DNA from: Candidatus Caccousia avicola
Lineage (GTDB): Bacteria > Bacillota > Clostridia > Oscillospirales > Acutalibacteraceae
Direction: 5' to 3'
DNA: 40,088 bases
Assembly: GCA_018712435.1 (NCBI GenBank)
Contig: DVGZ01000059.1
Span: 1-40,088 of the forward strand
Part shown: in pieces, positions 4,075 through 40,020 of the stretch
Layout of the letters: each line of letters starts with the position of its first letter
Position numbering within the stretch: the first letter of the stretch is position 1
Made by a program: the position numbers and the translations under genes
Notes under the pieces: model-generated
What the model was told of the DNA's origin: nothing
The model's input: only the letters and a program-made list of their open reading frames with translations
The model's database searches: none

Positions 4075-4869
4075 ATGAATTATCATAAGAACGATTCGGA
4101 AAACGGCGCCCGTTCCTCCCGCGCGGAGGGCGTGATCGCCGGAAGAAACACCGTGACGGAAGCTTTGCGCAGCGGACGGCCGATTGACACGCTGTATGTC
4201 GCGCGCGGCTCGCTGGAAAAGGGCAGTCTCGCGGCGCTGGCCGCCAAGGCCCGGCAGGCCGGAGCCAACGTCAAGGAAGCCGACCCCAAAAAGCTCGACG
4301 CGCTGTGCGGCGGAGCCGTCCACCAGGGCGTGGTGGCGCTGGCGGCAGCGAAGGAATTCGCCACGCTGGACGACATCTTCCGTCTTGCGGAGGAGCGGGG
4401 CGAACCTCCTTTTCTCATTTTGGCGGACGAGCTGGCCGACCCGCACAACCTGGGGGCCATCCTGCGCACAGCCGAGTGCGCGGGAGCGCATGGCGTGGTG
4501 ATCCCGAAGCGCCGCTCCGTGGGCCTGACCTACACCGTCGGCAAGGCTTCGGCGGGCGCGCTCGAATATGTGCCCGTCGCGCGTGTGGCAAACCTGCCCT
4601 CGTGCATGGAGGAGCTCAAACGGCGCGGCGTGTGGATCTTCGGCGCGGACATGGACGGCACGCCCTGGTGCGAAGCCGATTTCACCGGCCCCATGGCGCT
4701 GGTCATCGGTTCGGAGGGCTTCGGCATGGGCCGTCTGGTCAAGGAAAAATGCGATTTTATCATATCTTTGCCGATGAAGGGCAAAATAACCTCACTGAAC
4801 GCCTCTGTGGCGTGCGGTGTGCTGGCTTATGAGGCGGCACGCCAGCGCGCGGGAATCCGGGCGCGCTGA
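4075..4869 (+). CDS. rlmB: 23S rRNA (guanosine-2'-O-)-methyltransferase, TrmH/SpoU family
   Basis: This 264-residue SPOUT-class enzyme uses S-adenosylmethionine to methylate a ribose 2'-OH in 23S rRNA (G2251 in E. coli numbering). The N-terminal substrate-binding domain starts with VIAGRNTVTEAL. The C-terminal knotted domain has all three SpoU motifs: DPHNLGAILRTAE near residue 122 (with the key Asn/Arg), VIGSEGFGM near 211, and LPMKGKITSLNASVACGV near 232. The ATG is preceded by AAGGAT. The leader is nearly filled by repeat copy B. The large pseudo-ATPase gene follows after 32 bases and is likely in the same transcript. Another member of the TrmH family is possible, but the domain layout fits RlmB best. 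Confidence 0.92.
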   Translation: MNYHKNDSENGARSSRAEGVIAGRNTVTEALRSGRPIDTLYVARGSLEKGSLAALAAKARQAGANVKEADPKKLDALCGGAVHQGVVALAAAKEFATLDDIFRLAEERGEPPFLILADELADPHNLGAILRTAECAGAHGVVIPKRRSVGLTYTVGKASAGALEYVPVARVANLPSCMEELKRRGVWIFGADMDGTPWCEADFTGPMALVIGSEGFGMGRLVKEKCDFIISLPMKGKITSLNASVACGVLAYEAARQRAGIRAR

Positions 4870-4901: not shown

Positions 4902-7900
4902 ATGTCGGATGATCGAGAATACCGCGAGGATTTTTCTCTGGAAGAAATCCTCGCAGATGTGCGCAACAGCCGCACCAATCCTCCCAAGCCGGAGGATATC
5001 GCACAGCCTGGACTGGATTATGTGCCGTCCAGCGAAAAACAATCCGCAGACGAGACAACAGCGGAACCGAAGCCTGCTTCCCGCCGTGTACCGCTGTATC
5101 CGGAAAAGGAACAGAAAAAAACGGAACCGGCGCGCGCGGCAAACAAACAGCCGAAGGAAGACGACGGCGTGATCACCGCCGAGGATCTGGCGGAGGACGA
5201 TCCGGAGGAAACCCCGGAGACTCCGCGCCGCAAAAGCCTGCGCGGCCTGTTTTCCTTTGGCAAGAAGGAGAAAAAGAAGAATACGTTCCTGGACATGTCC
5301 GACGACGAGGAAAACCCCTACAAGGATCTTCACCTCAAAAGCCGCGAGGAATACAAGCGCGCTTACGAAAAAACCATGGATTTCGACAGTACCCCGCGCA
5401 GCAGTGAAGATTCCCCTTATTCCTATCTTTTCCACAGCGACGGGCAGGACAGCGACGACGATCTGGCCGCGCGCGCGGACAAGATGCGCGCCGAGCGCCA
5501 TGCCCGCCTGGCTCGTGCGATGAAAAAGGTCGGCTTTGACGAAAACAGCCAGAACGGCGAAGGAGATCTTTTCTCCATGTACCAGCGCGAGGAAGCCCAG
5601 CGCGCCGAACGCCGCACGCACGACGCCGAGGCCGCCGCCCGTGTGCTGGAAAAAGCGGGCGGACCGGAACCCGAGGAGGAGCCTGCCGCTCCGGAACAGG
5701 ACCAGCCCACGGCGACAGTGGAGCCGAGCACCCGCGAGTTTCCGAGCCTGACCGTGCTGGACACGCACGAAGCCCCCGCGCGCGGCAAAGCGGCGGACAC
5801 TGGTTCCGCCCAGACGCGCCGCACCGGGCAAACCTTCAAGGCAGCGCGCGGCGCAAAGCGGAAACCGGCACAGCCCAGCTTCCGCCCGGCCCCGCCCCCT
5901 GTTTTCCTGACGGAGCAGGAGGAGACGAAGCGGCAGGAACCCGCACCGGCAAAGACGAAACCGGCGCAGGACACGCCCGCACAGACCGCGCCGGCCACAG
6001 CGGAAACGGAGCGCGAGCAGACCCCCGCTCCGGTAAAGGAGCCTTCGCCCGCGTCGCCCACCCCCGCGCGTGAGCCCGCGCCCGCTCCGGTGCGCGAACC
6101 GGAGGAAGCGCCGCAGCCGCGTGTGCTCGCCAGCTCGAAAGGCAACGCCAAAAGCGGATCGCGCGAACACTCGTACCGCTCGCGCAAAAACCGTCCCGCC
6201 AAGGTGGTGACGATGGAGGAAACGCCCGGCGAGCTGCGGGAAGCCCTCGATAACGAGGCGCGCACCTATCCGCGCCCCGGCAAGCTTGCCGCCCCCACCG
6301 AACCGGCGGAGCAGCACGCGCAGAAGTCCGCGGCGCGCCAGGAAAGCGCACAGCAGGCAAAGCAGCCTGCCGTACATATAGACAGTACACCGCAGGAGAA
6401 ACAAACATCCGCCGCGCGGAACGAAACGCCTGACGGCATCTGGGAGGATACCACCCCCAAAACGGCTCCGAAGAAGGATTCCGTGCCGGACGCGTGGGCG
6501 GAATTCGCCCCGGCAGACGTGACGGCTTCCACTCCCATTCAGCCGCAGGAAACCGCTGTCTGGGACCATGACGGATGGGAGGAAATTGAGTCCTCCTCCG
6601 GCAAGCCCCTGCGCGGACGCACCATTCCGCTGCACCCCACTCCCTCTCCGGCTCCCGCCGAGGAGGAGGAAAGCGAGGAGGAGGCTGAGGAAACGCTGAA
6701 GCGCAAGCCCGGCCAGAAACGCCATAAGCGCTTCTCGATCCTCGGCACGGAGGAAAAGGACAACCGTCCCGAGGACGAATTCCCGGCGGATCCCGAGGAG
6801 ATCGAGGACTACGAAAAGCCGGAGGACGCGGCGTCCATCCTGCACGACCTCGGAGAAAAGCACCGCGCCCTGCTTCTGCGGGCGGGCGTGACGGGTCTTT
6901 CCCTGTTCCTGATGCTTCTCTTCGGGCTGATCTCGGAATACAACGGGATCCTTCCCTCGTTCATTTCCTATTATCTGCTGACGCAGCCGTATTTGATTTT
7001 GGAGCTGATCTTCCTCATCATCGCCGGGGCCTTCTCCTGGCCGGTGCTGCTCAACGGTCTCAAGGGCCTGATCCGCTTGCAGGCCAACAGCGACAGCGGC
7101 GTGGCCGTGGCCGTTGCCGCATCCGCCATTCATACCGTGCTGCTTCTGTTTTCAACGGCGCGGGTGGATACGGCTTCCCTGCATCTTTATGCCCCGCTGG
7201 CTGTGCTCGCGCTCTTTTTGAACACGCTCGGCAAGCTCTCCATGGTCAAGCGGATCACCAAGAATTTCCGCTTTGTGGCTTCGCCCGACAAAAAGATGGC
7301 CGTTCATCTGCTGAATGACCACAACATGGCGCTGCAAATGACGCGCGGTTATGTGGAAGACGCGCCCGTTGTGGCCTACCAGACGAAAACGGGCTTTTTG
7401 AAGAATTTCCTGCGGATTTCGTATCTGCCGGACGCGTGCGAGCAAAGCTCACAGGTGATTGCGCCGATCGGCATTGTCTCCTCTCTGCTGCTGTGCGTGG
7501 CGACGCTGCTCCTCTCCCACGACGCGATGGCGGCTCTCACCGCGTTCACCGCTTCCTGCTGCATCTGCACGCCGATGCTCAACCAGCTCTGTGTGAACCT
7601 GCCGCTGGCGCAGGCTTCGCGTCTCGCGGGACGGCACGGCGCGATGATCTCCGGCTATCAGGCGCTGGACAAATTCAGCGACACCAACGCCATTCTGGTT
7701 GACGCAAAGGAGCTGTTCCCGAAAAACTGCGTCGTGCTCAGCGGAATCAAAACCTTTGGGGATCAGCGCATCGACGACGCAATCCTCGACGCCGCCGCCC
7801 TGCTCAACCAGACCGGCGGCACGCTCAGTGAGATTTTCGACGAGGTGATCCAGAGCCGCCGCGAGCTTCTTCCGAAGGTGGAGAACTATACCTACGAGGA

Positions 7901-8534
7901 CGGCAAGGGGATCGTGGGCTGGGTGTCCGGCCACCGCCTGCTGATCGGCAGCCGCGACCTGCTGCTGGCGCACCACATCACCCCGCCCTCGCACGATTAC
8001 GAAAAGAAATATGTCCTCGGGGGCAAAAAAGTGCTGTATCTGGCTTCGGGCGGACAGCTCGTCGCGATGTTCCTCATCGCGTACAACGCCGACCGCCGCC
8101 GCACGATCGAGCTATGCCGCCTGGAGGACAACGGCGTTGCCTTCCTGGTGCGCACCTGTGACCCGAACATCACCCCGGAGCTGATTGCGGAAAGCTTCCA
8201 GCTGAACGCCCGCTCCGTCAACGTGCTTCCCACCCGTCTCGGCAACGTTTATGTGAAGGTGGGCAAGAAACCGAACGCCCCCGCCGCCGCGTGGCTGGCC
8301 ACCAAGGGCCGTCCCACGGCCATGATGCGTCTGGTTTCCCTGTGCATCCGCCAGCGCGGGAACATCTCGCTTGCCGTCGCCCTGCAAAATGTGGCTGTCG
8401 GGCTCGGATTTGTTCTTGTGGCCTTCCTGGCCTGCTATTCGGGTCTCGGCAAGCTGAACACACTGTTCCTGCTGATCTATGAGCTGTTCTGGGCGCTCGC
8501 CATCGTGCTGCTGCCCAAGCTGCGCAAGCCCTGA
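4902..8534 (+). CDS. P1B-ATPase-like membrane protein lacking the catalytic motifs, with a long disordered N-terminus
   Basis: A 1210-residue protein. Residues 1 to about 640 are low-complexity, rich in Glu, Pro, Lys and Ala, starting with a conserved-looking DFSLEEILADVR. From about 655 there are eight hydrophobic segments in the 4 - loop - 2 - large loop - 2 order of P1B heavy-metal ATPases: near 657-675, 695-715, 735-752, 762-780, 850-870, 874-897, and two within 1155-1205. The metal-site position reads SCCICTPM (about 884-890). The region that should be DKTGT reads VDAKELFP (Asp934): the Asp is kept but KTGT is lost. The TGD position reads TCDPN (about 1085), and the GDGxNDxP motif and A-domain TGE are absent. 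A KGIVGWVSGHRLLIGS segment still resembles the nucleotide-domain fold. Hydrolysis is therefore unlikely; a scaffold or sensor role is inferred. A terminator follows. Confidence 0.8.
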   Translation: MSDDREYREDFSLEEILADVRNSRTNPPKPEDIAQPGLDYVPSSEKQSADETTAEPKPASRRVPLYPEKEQKKTEPARAANKQPKEDDGVITAEDLAEDDPEETPETPRRKSLRGLFSFGKKEKKKNTFLDMSDDEENPYKDLHLKSREEYKRAYEKTMDFDSTPRSSEDSPYSYLFHSDGQDSDDDLAARADKMRAERHARLARAMKKVGFDENSQNGEGDLFSMYQREEAQRAERRTHDAEAAARVLEKAGGPEPEEEPAAPEQDQPTATVEPSTREFPSLTVLDTHEAPARGKAADTGSAQTRRTGQTFKAARGAKRKPAQPSFRPAPPPVFLTEQEETKRQEPAPAKTKPAQDTPAQTAPATAETEREQTPAPVKEPSPASPTPAREPAPAPVREPEEAPQPRVLASSKGNAKSGSREHSYRSRKNRPAKVVTMEETPGELREALDNEARTYPRPGKLAAPTEPAEQHAQKSAARQESAQQAKQPAVHIDSTPQEKQTSAARNETPDGIWEDTTPKTAPKKDSVPDAWAEFAPADVTASTPIQPQETAVWDHDGWEEIESSSGKPLRGRTIPLHPTPSPAPAEEEESEEEAEETLKRKPGQKRHKRFSILGTEEKDNRPEDEFPADPEEIEDYEKPEDAASILHDLGEKHRALLLRAGVTGLSLFLMLLFGLISEYNGILPSFISYYLLTQPYLILELIFLIIAGAFSWPVLLNGLKGLIRLQANSDSGVAVAVAASAIHTVLLLFSTARVDTASLHLYAPLAVLALFLNTLGKLSMVKRITKNFRFVASPDKKMAVHLLNDHNMALQMTRGYVEDAPVVAYQTKTGFLKNFLRISYLPDACEQSSQVIAPIGIVSSLLLCVATLLLSHDAMAALTAFTASCCICTPMLNQLCVNLPLAQASRLAGRHGAMISGYQALDKFSDTNAILVDAKELFPKNCVVLSGIKTFGDQRIDDAILDAAALLNQTGGTLSEIFDEVIQSRRELLPKVENYTYEDGKGIVGWVSGHRLLIGSRDLLLAHHITPPSHDYEKKYVLGGKKVLYLASGGQLVAMFLIAYNADRRRTIELCRLEDNGVAFLVRTCDPNITPELIAESFQLNARSVNVLPTRLGNVYVKVGKKPNAPAAAWLATKGRPTAMMRLVSLCIRQRGNISLAVALQNVAVGLGFVLVAFLACYSGLGKLNTLFLLIYELFWALAIVLLPKLRKP

Positions 8535-8558
8535 TAAATAATAATTGCAAATAGGGAC

Positions 8559-8601
8559 AGCCCCCGCACCTTCCGGAAGGAAGGCGTGGGGGCTGCTTTT
8601 T
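8559..8601 (+). terminator. Intrinsic terminator after the pseudo-ATPase gene
   Basis: A stem pairs AGCCCCC...CCTTCC (8559-8574) with GGAAGG...GGGGGCT (8579-8594) around a GGAA loop, with one G-T pair and one mismatch, and is followed by GCTTTTT. It lies 25 bases after the stop codon. Confidence 0.85.
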
Positions 8602-9380
8602 GGCGTTCCATAGGCGCGCGCGTCGTCAAACCAGATCATATCCGGCGACCACTGCGCATAGCCCACACGGGCAAAAAGCGGCGCATAGGAGGCCAGCGCC
8701 ACCACATCCGCGTTGCGCTCCACACCGGTGAGGAAAGCCGCCTCCGCCAGCGCGCCGCCAAGCGTGTTCGCGTCCGGGCGGTTCATGCCGTTCACTGGAT
8801 GCGCGGCGTACTCGCCCGAAAAGACCTTGATATTTCTCGGATACGCATCGTAAAAATCGGTGTGCTCGTAGAACCATTCCGGCTTGACATAATAGTGCTC
8901 GTCCACCGCGTAGACAAAGTTCTCCTTCTTCGGCGCGGCTTCCTTGTAGAAGTCCCATGCGGCCTTGTAGCGCTCCGAGGTGATATCGGGGCCGGCGGAA
9001 CCGATCAGGCGCATCTCGGGATATTTTGCATGGATCGCCTGCTCAAACGCCTGATAGCGGGAGAAGAAATCCACCTTTTCCGTCTGCCACTGCTCGTTGC
9101 CGATGCCCATCATCGTCATGCCGAACGGAGCGGGGTGGCCCATCTGCGCGCGCACGGCGCCCCATTCCAACGCTCTCCTTCCAGCGATAGCGGTTTTCCA
9201 GCGTGTTGCCCTCGATGATGCAGCCGCCGGGGAAGCGCAGGAATCCGGGATGCAGACCTTTGAGCAGTTCAAACAGATCCCGGCGGAACACGCCCGCCAC
9301 CGCATCCTCCGGCATGAGGGAGATAAAATCAAATTCCACCACCGGGAGGACACGGAAGCCGGGGATTTCTTCTCTGCTCT
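8600..9380 (-). pseudogene. GH51 alpha-L-arabinofuranosidase remnant
   Basis: Two minus-strand frames carry pieces of a family 51 glycoside hydrolase. Upstream, EFDFISLMPEDAV and GLHPGFLRFPGGCIIEG are followed by RYRWKESVG. In a second frame come EWGAVRAQMGHPAPFGM and MMGIGNEQW, with the catalytic acid/base Glu in GNE, and then sequence up to SPDMIWFDDARAYGTP. The two pieces join near 9170 by a frame change. Compared with the family, the segment between the WKE region and WGAVRA is missing (roughly 90 residues, from memory), as are the N-terminal and C-terminal parts. The remnant begins immediately after the leuD stop and ends at the terminator of the neighbouring gene, so flanking deletions have trimmed it on both sides. 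It cannot encode an active enzyme. Confidence 0.85.
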
Positions 9381-37837: not shown

Positions 37838-38083
37838 ATGAAACACCTGTTATCTTGTGAATTTAACCTTGATACTGCTTGTGTAGAGCTTTGCTTTTCA
37901 GACGGCAGCATGGTTTCTATCGACACTATCGCTGTGGAAAATGAGGTAGTGAATAATATGTATCAACAGTCGGAACTCGACTATCTGATCTATAATGACC
38001 CTGCTGCATATACTGATTTAATCCTTAACGGCGATCCTGCTGTCTACCTCAAGACAGTTACGGAATACCAAAACCTTGATTGA
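37838..38083 (+). CDS. DUF6061 family protein
   Basis: An 81-residue small protein, recognised by its pattern FNLDTACVELCFSDGSMVSIDT, ELDYLIYNDPAAY and LILNGDPAVYLKTVTEY (read in parts). DUF6061 proteins are common on integrative elements of gut Clostridia and have no known function. GGAGG lies 8 bases before the ATG. The frame is open a few codons upstream, but the ATG at 37838 has the ribosome binding site. It is acidic, has no membrane segment, and is followed by its own terminator. Confidence 0.85.
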   Translation: MKHLLSCEFNLDTACVELCFSDGSMVSIDTIAVENEVVNNMYQQSELDYLIYNDPAAYTDLILNGDPAVYLKTVTEYQNLD

Positions 38084-38095
38084 TTTTTGGTGACG

Positions 38096-38139
38096 AACAA
38101 GAGCTGCCCTGCCATTCAGCGGAGCAGCTCTTGTTTTGG
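38096..38139 (+). terminator. Intrinsic terminator of the DUF6061 gene
   Basis: AACAAGAGCTGC (38096-38107) pairs perfectly with GCAGCTCTTGTT (38124-38135), followed by TTGG. The stem is strong and the T-tract short. Confidence 0.75.
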
Positions 38140-38194
38140 CAAAAATGCGTTCATGAAAAGTTATGCTTTACTTTGGTGAATTGGGAAACTAATC

Positions 38195-38223
38195 TTGAAA
38201 AATATGGTGCATTCTTGTATAAT
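38195..38223 (+). promoter_or_regulatory. Promoter of the GmrSD-type gene
   Basis: TTGAAA (38195-38200), a 17-base spacer and a perfect TATAAT (38218-38223). Confidence 0.85.
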
Positions 38224-38225
38224 GA

Positions 38226-38239
38226 TGTGTGTACACACA
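38226..38239. promoter_or_regulatory. Operator-like palindrome at the GmrSD start site
   Basis: TGTGTGT-ACACACA is a perfect 14-base palindrome that begins 2 bases after the -10 box, so it covers the expected transcription start. It could be a repressor site; no regulator is encoded in the visible part of the island. Confidence 0.5.
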
Positions 38240-38265
38240 CCGATTTACCGGAAAGGATGAAACCG

Positions 38266-40020
38266 ATGGCCGATACACATATTAAATATAACGATCACTC
38301 GATCAACTCCGCATTTAAGAACCACTACATTGTTCCCGACTATCAACGAGAGTATGTTTGGAAAGACGAACAGGTAGAGCAGCTGTTGGCAGACTTACTG
38401 GATGCCTACAATACCGATAGTCAAAAGGCTTATTTCCTTGGCACTATTGTAACTTATGACTCTGGCAGCCAGTTTGAGTTGATTGACGGACAGCAGCGCC
38501 TTACCACATTTTTTATTCTGTTGTGTGCGATCAAAAAAATCTACATAGATCATGGTGAACAAACCAGTGTTATTGAAAATTTAATTTATAGCCCAACTAT
38601 GAATAGTGAGGGTGATGTGATTAACTTGTATCATCTCCAGCTTCAATATGAAGATGCCGGAAATTGTTTGGAGCTGATTGAAAAAGGACAGGAACGACCG
38701 AACTATATCACACAATCGGGAGAAAGACTGTTCGACGCATTCAAGACGATCCAGGACTTTTTGCAGGAGCAATTCCCCCAAATCGCTGATTTGAAAAAAT
38801 TTGTTGTGTTTCTGCTAAACAAAACAAGCTTTATTCGTATTGAAACTTATGACATTTCCGATGCACTGAAGATTTTTGAAACAATCAACCAACGAGGCAA
38901 AGGGCTTGACCCGATGGATTTGCTTAAGAATATGGTTTTCCGTCAGGTTGACAGAAGCAAATTCAAAGAACTAAATATGAACTGGAAATCTATTACCCGT
39001 TCACTGGAAAAAATTGATGAGAAGCCGCTCCGTTTTCTTCGCTATTTTATCATGGCCAATTATGATACCTCCAGCGAAAAAGATGGGATTCTCCGTGAAG
39101 ATCAGATCTATACCTGGCTCAGCAATAACAACGTACAGTGCCATTATCAAGAAGCTCCATTTCAGTTTGTTCAAAAAATGGCACAAAATGTTGAGTTATA
39201 TGTTAAGTGCAGGATGCCCGATGATGCATCGGAAGGAAATGTACATTTGAAGAACATTCCTTTGCTGGCGGGTAAGTCCTATAAGCTGCACCTGATGCTT
39301 CTTCTTGCGGCTTCCAACATGAACTCAGAAGCATTTGCTAAATTTAAAAGCATTCTTGAATCTGTAGTTTATTATACGGTAATTGATAAAATAGCGACCA
39401 ACATCACAGAGCGAACTTTTGCATTGTGGTGCAGAGATGTTCGCAATATTATTACGGTAGAGGACTTGGATTGTTTTGTAAAGAACACTATTATTCCCAC
39501 GGTGAATGACTGGAAACTCGATAATAAATCCAACTTCCTTCGCTTGGGGTTGAACAGTATGCAGCAATATCGAATCAAGTTTATTCTCGGTAAAATCACT
39601 GCGTATGTAGATGCATTGAAATTAGGGAAAACCACGGTGGAGGATTTAACTACCTATACGGAAACAGCAGTTGAGATTGAACACATTATGCCGCAGACTT
39701 GTACAGATAAAGAGCTGTATGGCATGGATGAAGAAGAATTCTCTGTATATATTAACCGGCTTGGAAATCTTACCTTGCTTGAAAACACCATCAACAGATC
39801 AATCCAGAATGATGTTTACGCAAACAAGGCAACTTACTATAAACAGTCTAAATTCTACATCACTTCTTCTATCTCGGAACTGGTGAATTTAGGACAGGAT
39901 ACTGCTATCAACAGAACGAACTCACTGCTGTCCTCTTGGTCTGATTGGAACAAACAAGCCATTGAAGAACGACAAGAAATGTTCTATCGCTTAAGCGAAA
40001 TGATATGGGAGTTGCGATAA
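38266..40020 (+). CDS. GmrSD-type restriction protein (DUF262 + HNH DUF1524)
   Basis: A 584-residue fused protein. The N-terminal DUF262 (GmrS-like, ParB-related) domain has IVPDYQREYVWKDEQV (about 22-37), the nucleotide-site motif ELIDGQQRLTTFFIL (about 71-85), and ETINQRGKGLDPMDLLKNMVF (in parts, about 204-224). The C-terminal DUF1524 (GmrD-like) domain has an HNH nuclease core: VEIEHIMPQ (His near 472) and NRLGNLTLLENTINRSIQN (in parts) with the Asn near 500, then a Tyr/Lys-rich YYKQSKF. Relatives are type IV enzymes that cut modified phage DNA in an NTP-dependent way. The start at 38266 (MADTHIKYND) has GGAAAGG 9 bases upstream; the frame is open further but lacks a ribosome binding site. 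The target modification cannot be predicted. Confidence 0.92.
   Translation: MADTHIKYNDHSINSAFKNHYIVPDYQREYVWKDEQVEQLLADLLDAYNTDSQKAYFLGTIVTYDSGSQFELIDGQQRLTTFFILLCAIKKIYIDHGEQTSVIENLIYSPTMNSEGDVINLYHLQLQYEDAGNCLELIEKGQERPNYITQSGERLFDAFKTIQDFLQEQFPQIADLKKFVVFLLNKTSFIRIETYDISDALKIFETINQRGKGLDPMDLLKNMVFRQVDRSKFKELNMNWKSITRSLEKIDEKPLRFLRYFIMANYDTSSEKDGILREDQIYTWLSNNNVQCHYQEAPFQFVQKMAQNVELYVKCRMPDDASEGNVHLKNIPLLAGKSYKLHLMLLLAASNMNSEAFAKFKSILESVVYYTVIDKIATNITERTFALWCRDVRNIITVEDLDCFVKNTIIPTVNDWKLDNKSNFLRLGLNSMQQYRIKFILGKITAYVDALKLGKTTVEDLTTYTETAVEIEHIMPQTCTDKELYGMDEEEFSVYINRLGNLTLLENTINRSIQNDVYANKATYYKQSKFYITSSISELVNLGQDTAINRTNSLLSSWSDWNKQAIEERQEMFYRLSEMIWELR

Follow-up and report, generated by a model that had tools for sequence, protein, structure and literature searches.

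The locus and its rlmB neighbour

The window analysed here, a stretch of 40,088 nt from Candidatus Caccousia avicola, contains at positions 4902-8534 (+) an intact open reading frame of 1210 amino acids, with an AGGAG sequence shortly 5' of its ATG. The original prediction, made from the letters alone, had described the product as an intact but degenerate P1B-type ATPase with a disordered N-terminus, and this description holds: the protein is composed of a charged N-terminal extension, measured at 634 aa and delimited by composition (aa 1-634, 4902-6803), and an eight-helix P1B-like core of 576 aa (aa 635-1210, 6804-8531), defined by an AlphaFold2 model and the match to the Legionella copper pump LpCopA. 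The gene starts 32 nt behind the stop codon of rlmB (4075-4869, +), which encodes the 23S rRNA Gm2251 methyltransferase (TIGR00186, E 8.5e-68) and forms the first gene of a conserved pair. At 127 of the 129 ortholog loci whose upstream sequence is long enough, rlmB likewise lies directly upstream and on the same strand, the median gap over the ortholog loci being 22 nt, and it is the sole neighbour kept throughout the order; genes further upstream or downstream vary. The two genes are probably co-transcribed. Outside the order, rlmB-family genes are found in species without the pseudo-pump gene, so the linkage need not mean a common function, and it suggests co-expression instead. On the opposite strand, an open reading frame at 8112-9353 (-) contains a stretch recognised by eye as arabinofuranosidase-like; since it extends into the antisense of the pseudo-pump, the arabinofuranosidase-like gene may be frameshifted or truncated.

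Fold of the core and loss of the catalytic motifs

P-type ATPases are textbook ion pumps, and the relationship of the core to their heavy-metal branch is seen at several levels. The NCBIfam CopA model matches the 1210-aa protein at E 4.5e-11 and 45 of 53 orthologs at E<=0.001, and LpCopA (3rfu) is found at E 9.8e-13 with the single sequence and at 6.7e-43 with the family profile. The NCBIfam model for heavy metal translocating P-type ATPases (TIGR01525) scores 36.5 bits, which is under its curated cut-off of 346.25 bits; the Pfam search of the protein matched no specific family, and neither Pfam nor NCBIfam searches recognised an RNA-binding domain. The AlphaFold2 model of the core, built with 53 orthologs, reaches a pLDDT of 91.2 and a pTM of 0.85. 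Its best solved structural match is Legionella CopA (3rfu; Z 24.9, 466 residues, rmsd 8.5), where an rmsd of 8-9 Å fits domain movement together with divergence, so that the fold class is safe and the domain positions are not. ATP7B (7si7) matches over the whole length with Z 23.2. Structure prediction had been set beforehand as a check on the proposed eight-helix P1B plan, and the model does resemble P-type ATPases: eight hydrophobic helices, seen in both the hydropathy profile and the model, occupy the expected MA, MB and M1-M6 positions, the kink glycine of MB is kept in 131 of 145 orthologs, and the cytosolic A, P and N domains are present in the model, the A domain as a remnant only. In descent, judged by homology, and in predicted fold, the core belongs to the P1B superfamily. 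KdpB (7lc6) and other P-type ATPases share the P-type fold with it, at a lower structural match (Z 13.3 for KdpB); KdpB and other P-type pumps retain their catalytic motifs.

These motifs were compared in 145 non-redundant orthologs and 23 pump controls. DKTGT, present in 23/23 controls, occurs in 0/145 orthologs, and the proposed change of DKTGTLT to DAKELFP is confirmed at D934 (7701-7721, aa 934-940). The Asp itself is found in 99/145 orthologs, while the K, T, G and T that follow are replaced by A/S-x-E/D-L and then [FY]-P, which gives the family consensus D-[AS]-x-[ED]-L-[FY]-P. The original prediction was also right that TGE and GDGxND are missing, and the segments bearing them have been deleted, not just mutated. 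At the aligned columns, which are gaps in nearly all orthologs, TGE occurs in 0/145; the remnant of the A domain (7281-7433, aa 794-844) has lost the part that bears it, and the A-domain span is 71 vs 136 aa, indicating deletion rather than mutation. GDGxND is absent from all 145 orthologs in comparison to the 23 controls, and the span from the TGD position to M5 measures 69 vs 100 aa. In place of TGD, found at the aligned columns in none of the 145 orthologs, stands TCDPNIT (8154-8174, aa 1085-1091), so that the predicted TGD to TCD change is borne out at T1085-C-D1087. The surrounding loop, T-x-D-P-N-[IV]-T, is itself a family motif (D1087 in 142, N1089 in 132 and T1091 in 117 of 145 orthologs, with T1085 common as well). 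The PxxK lysine is lost, its column being mainly Leu or Ala, and the His of the HP (SEHP) motif is replaced (G in 78, S in 26 and N in 20 of 145).

The metal site shows a similar picture. The cysteine-rich SCCICTPM (7554-7577, aa 885-892) does lie at the M4 ion-site position, as had been proposed, but the positions of the CPC cysteines are here T890 and M892, and no Cys is kept there in the family, in which the two columns are mainly V/A/I/T and V/L/F/I/M. Residues of the M5/M6 ion site are replaced as well, mostly by hydrophobic ones, and the M4 proline (P891) is kept in 132/145 orthologs. SCCICTPM was considered as a metal site of the family and rejected, its Cys columns being variable and the Cys-rich stretch confined to close relatives; the earlier suggestion of a metal sensor is weakened by the same observations. 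The N (nucleotide-binding-like) domain (7725-8087, aa 942-1062) stands out in the family for its conservation, with Gly1003 in 144 and Gly1016 in 145 of 145 orthologs: it scores 0.447 and the first P segment 0.461, the highest values of all parts, vs 0.31-0.36 in the membrane helices. The conserved N-domain glycines, the new family motifs and the order-wide rlmB linkage go beyond what had been noticed originally. A Post-Albers cycle requires the phosphoacceptor context, a Mg site, a dephosphorylation motif and metal ligands; all of these are lost, which renders such a cycle implausible. Judged by its motifs and modelled fold, the protein is almost certainly a conserved one that is catalytically dead or, at the very least, non-canonical.

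In comparison to CopA, ATP7B and ZntA, the pseudo-pump thus shares the eight-helix core, the domain order (A remnant - P - N - P), the glycine positions of the N domain and a structural match over the whole length. It differs from them in the lack of all catalytic motifs and of both CPC cysteines, in the absence of roughly half of the A domain and some 30 aa of the P domain, in having, where those pumps carry metal-binding domains, a disordered N-terminus that is long and bears a docking-like motif, and in forming a separate clade. In a literature search whose coverage included few subscription journals, no paper on a bacterial pseudo or degenerate P-type ATPase family was found, and nothing on the motif string or on rlmB with a P-type ATPase in Clostridia. 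The closest published parallel that we found is human TMEM94 (ERMA), a P-type ATPase-like membrane protein which, as one cryo-EM study reports, lacks the TGES motif and undergoes no phosphorylation cycle (PMC12134183), and which another group still calls a Mg2+ ATPase (PMC13322241). TMEM94 differs in being human, in having ten helices and in being closest to SPCA (PMC12134183); it would at most be a parallel case, related at the level of P-type ATPases.

An order-wide clade under purifying selection

The family profile matches 274 of 295 genomes of the order, once each at E<=1e-60, and 219 of the 226 high-quality genomes; with the single protein, 56 of 58 relatives' genomes were matched, and the full-length family matches are far better than the matches to canonical pumps in the same genomes. 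The relatives named in a scan of genome contigs with the 11 closest orthologs include Anaeromassilibacillus sp. An200 (97% identical), Caproiciproducens, Ruminococcus bromii, Anaerotruncus and Hydrogenoanaerobacterium, and from these names the order would be Oscillospirales in GTDB terms. No full-length match was found in the 279 genomes that belong to the class but not to the order; they contain partial matches to ordinary pumps, mostly in the M3-P-N region (best 1.9e-42), whereas the 12 own-order genomes in the class sample match at about 1e-115 or better. Likewise, when 398 genomes from across the phylum were sampled, only own-order genomes passed E 1e-43. A viral origin was also considered and rejected, a single-protein scan of viral contigs having returned no relative. 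Ten genomes of the order with an apparent absence were checked, and most of these absences are contig breaks or missing loci. A diverged copy is present in one (G527), the gene start is present in two others whose contigs end within it (G004, G347), and six of the ten also have no strong rlmB match, the locus being missing or co-lost; G009 looks like a true loss, although its rlmB is followed by just 411 nt.

In a quick tree with long branches, the family separates from the pumps as a single clade (SH-aLRT 100) on a long stem. Towards the nearest, 97% identical relative, dN/dS is 0.044. The original prediction had argued that the protein is not simply decaying and had called it a pseudo-pump, leaving open whether orthologs keep the catalytic motifs. 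None of them does, and the order-wide clade, the absence of the motifs from 145 orthologs and the low dN/dS together strongly support a maintained pseudoenzyme branch, neither a product of decay nor a canonical pump. That the gene might be a decaying metal-pump pseudogene, or an artefact, would agree with the loss of motifs and with in-frame TGA codons in two orthologs (G056, G585); it is intact in nearly all genomes, however, occurs throughout the order and has acquired new conserved motifs, and this reading, to which we attach next to no probability, is refuted by purifying selection and conservation. As an observation on the G056 ortholog (L025, L144), its one in-frame TGA may be a sequencing error or a recent break.

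The N-terminal arm and possible functions

E, A, P, K and R abound in the N-terminal extension, which is poor in hydrophobic residues and has 75% disorder-promoting residues vs 47% in the C-terminal part. Its length varies among orthologs from 2 to 1053 aa, and one ortholog (L061) is without it. Two short motifs recur among the orthologs far above shuffled sequences. Close to the N-terminus lies FSLEEILADVR (4932-4964, aa 11-21), whose class, [FYW][SN][LIV][DE][DE]IL, is found in 46/156 ortholog extensions vs 0.065 in shuffles; directly before the membrane part lies EDYEKPEDA (6804-6830, aa 635-643), whose pattern is found in 95/156 orthologs vs 7.7 in shuffles. Other stretches also recur in the arms, for example EIFSNT and PHALTPDEL (L071, L073, L042, L087, L043, L045), and SYLF in 10/156 orthologs vs 0.09 in shuffles.

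Searching the order with degenerate DNA patterns of the N-terminal motif returned 52 matches for the forward pattern vs 1 for the reversed one in 394 genomes, mostly in the pseudo-pump gene itself. Several of the remaining matches lie at the ends of other envelope proteins. An LCP protein (L298 1-1551, -) carries the form [FY][SN][LIV]DDILxE at its extreme N-terminus, and so do ABC-2 export permeases (L293 927-2234, -; L312 797-2332, -; further L313, L314 and, as a cut copy, L315), which are all of one genus and of the polysaccharide-export type. A signal peptidase II (L297 988-1857, +) carries YSLEDILAEF at its C-terminus, and a membrane protein without a Pfam family (L316 368-1396, +), which by eye recalls a type I signal peptidase, has YKIDDILEELK at its very C-terminus, preceded by an acidic, proline-rich tail. 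In a FapA protein (L295), YTVDEILKEL lies near the start of an open frame whose true start is uncertain. Matches in the middle of proteins (F420 ligase, ABC1 kinase and, by eye, EF-Ts-like proteins) were judged to be chance. In the genome to which the window belongs, the pattern search turned up two other matches besides the pseudo-pump, with no clear second protein among them.

The reading that we tentatively put forward, and which is quite possibly right without being assured, is that of a dead P1B branch which arose once in the order, is probably co-transcribed with rlmB and has been kept for a non-transport job as an adaptor in the cell envelope. The protein would be a membrane-anchored adaptor or scaffold, the disordered cytoplasmic arm of which carries a terminal docking motif, here FSLEEILADV; this motif may dock onto a hub in the cytosol that serves some LCP ligases, polysaccharide exporters and signal peptidases as well. 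Without hydrolysing anything, the N domain and the new D934 / T-x-D-P-N-I-T loop might bind a nucleotide, some other ligand or a partner, and what is bound could set the state of the adaptor. Such a role fits the kept fold, the N-domain glycines, the polar P-domain loop and the flexible, motif-bearing arm; what counts against it is that less than a third of the ortholog extensions have the strict docking motif, that L061 is without an extension, that no clear second protein with the motif emerged in the window's own genome, and that the ABC-permease matches stem from a single genus. The scaffold or envelope role contemplated in the original prediction gains tentative and indirect support, from the N-terminal motif common to other envelope proteins.

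Other functions should be weighed against the envelope adaptor. A membrane sensor, in which ATP, some other nucleotide or an ion would bind to the N and P domains and be signalled via the helices or the arm without turnover, the envelope motif being secondary, is unlikely but deserves serious consideration: conservation peaks in the N domain and the first P segment, Gly1003, Gly1016 and Asp1087 hardly vary, D934 and T1085 occur in many orthologs, and in canonical P1B pumps the equivalent positions line the nucleotide and phosphorylation sites. Against this, the family has lost the His of the HP motif that contacts adenine, the Lys and GDGxND, which hold phosphate and Mg, are gone, and the conserved glycines may serve the fold alone. 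We regard it as improbable that the family is a non-canonical transporter moving its substrate through the eight-helix bundle passively or by an unknown energy source; although all eight helices, the MB kink glycine and the M4 proline are retained, mostly hydrophobic residues stand in place of the metal-ligand cysteines and of those that form the M5/M6 ion site, and the membrane part is less conserved than the N domain (0.31-0.36 vs 0.45). A factor of ribosome biogenesis or translation at the membrane would account for the pairing with rlmB, the only neighbour conserved order-wide, but is very improbable given the lack of a recognised RNA-binding domain, the rlmB-family genes that occur outside the order without a pseudo-pump and the variable genes downstream.

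Returning to the envelope adaptor, its boldest form would be an undescribed docking network of the Oscillospirales, in which LCP proteins, a polysaccharide-type ABC exporter, signal peptidase II and the pseudo-pump end in [FY][SNT][LVI]DDILxE and bind one cytosolic hub, the dead ATPase being a nucleotide-responsive scaffold and the near-universal member. We consider this speculative and rather doubtful; the cases are few and were chosen by eye among pattern matches, which makes the network a lead rather than a finding. Should the motif common to these protein ends prove real, the peptide would offer a direct handle on an organiser of the cell envelope. The family further indicates that a whole pump architecture is reusable, as phosphorylation, dephosphorylation, Mg2+ and metal sites have been dropped and yet a single copy is kept nearly order-wide. 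It represents a core gene of a large gut order, which includes for example Ruminococcus bromii, and its members run the risk of being misannotated as copper pumps. Elsewhere in the window, a GmrSD-type restriction endonuclease with both Pfam domains is encoded at 38080-40020 (+), at the end of the contig.
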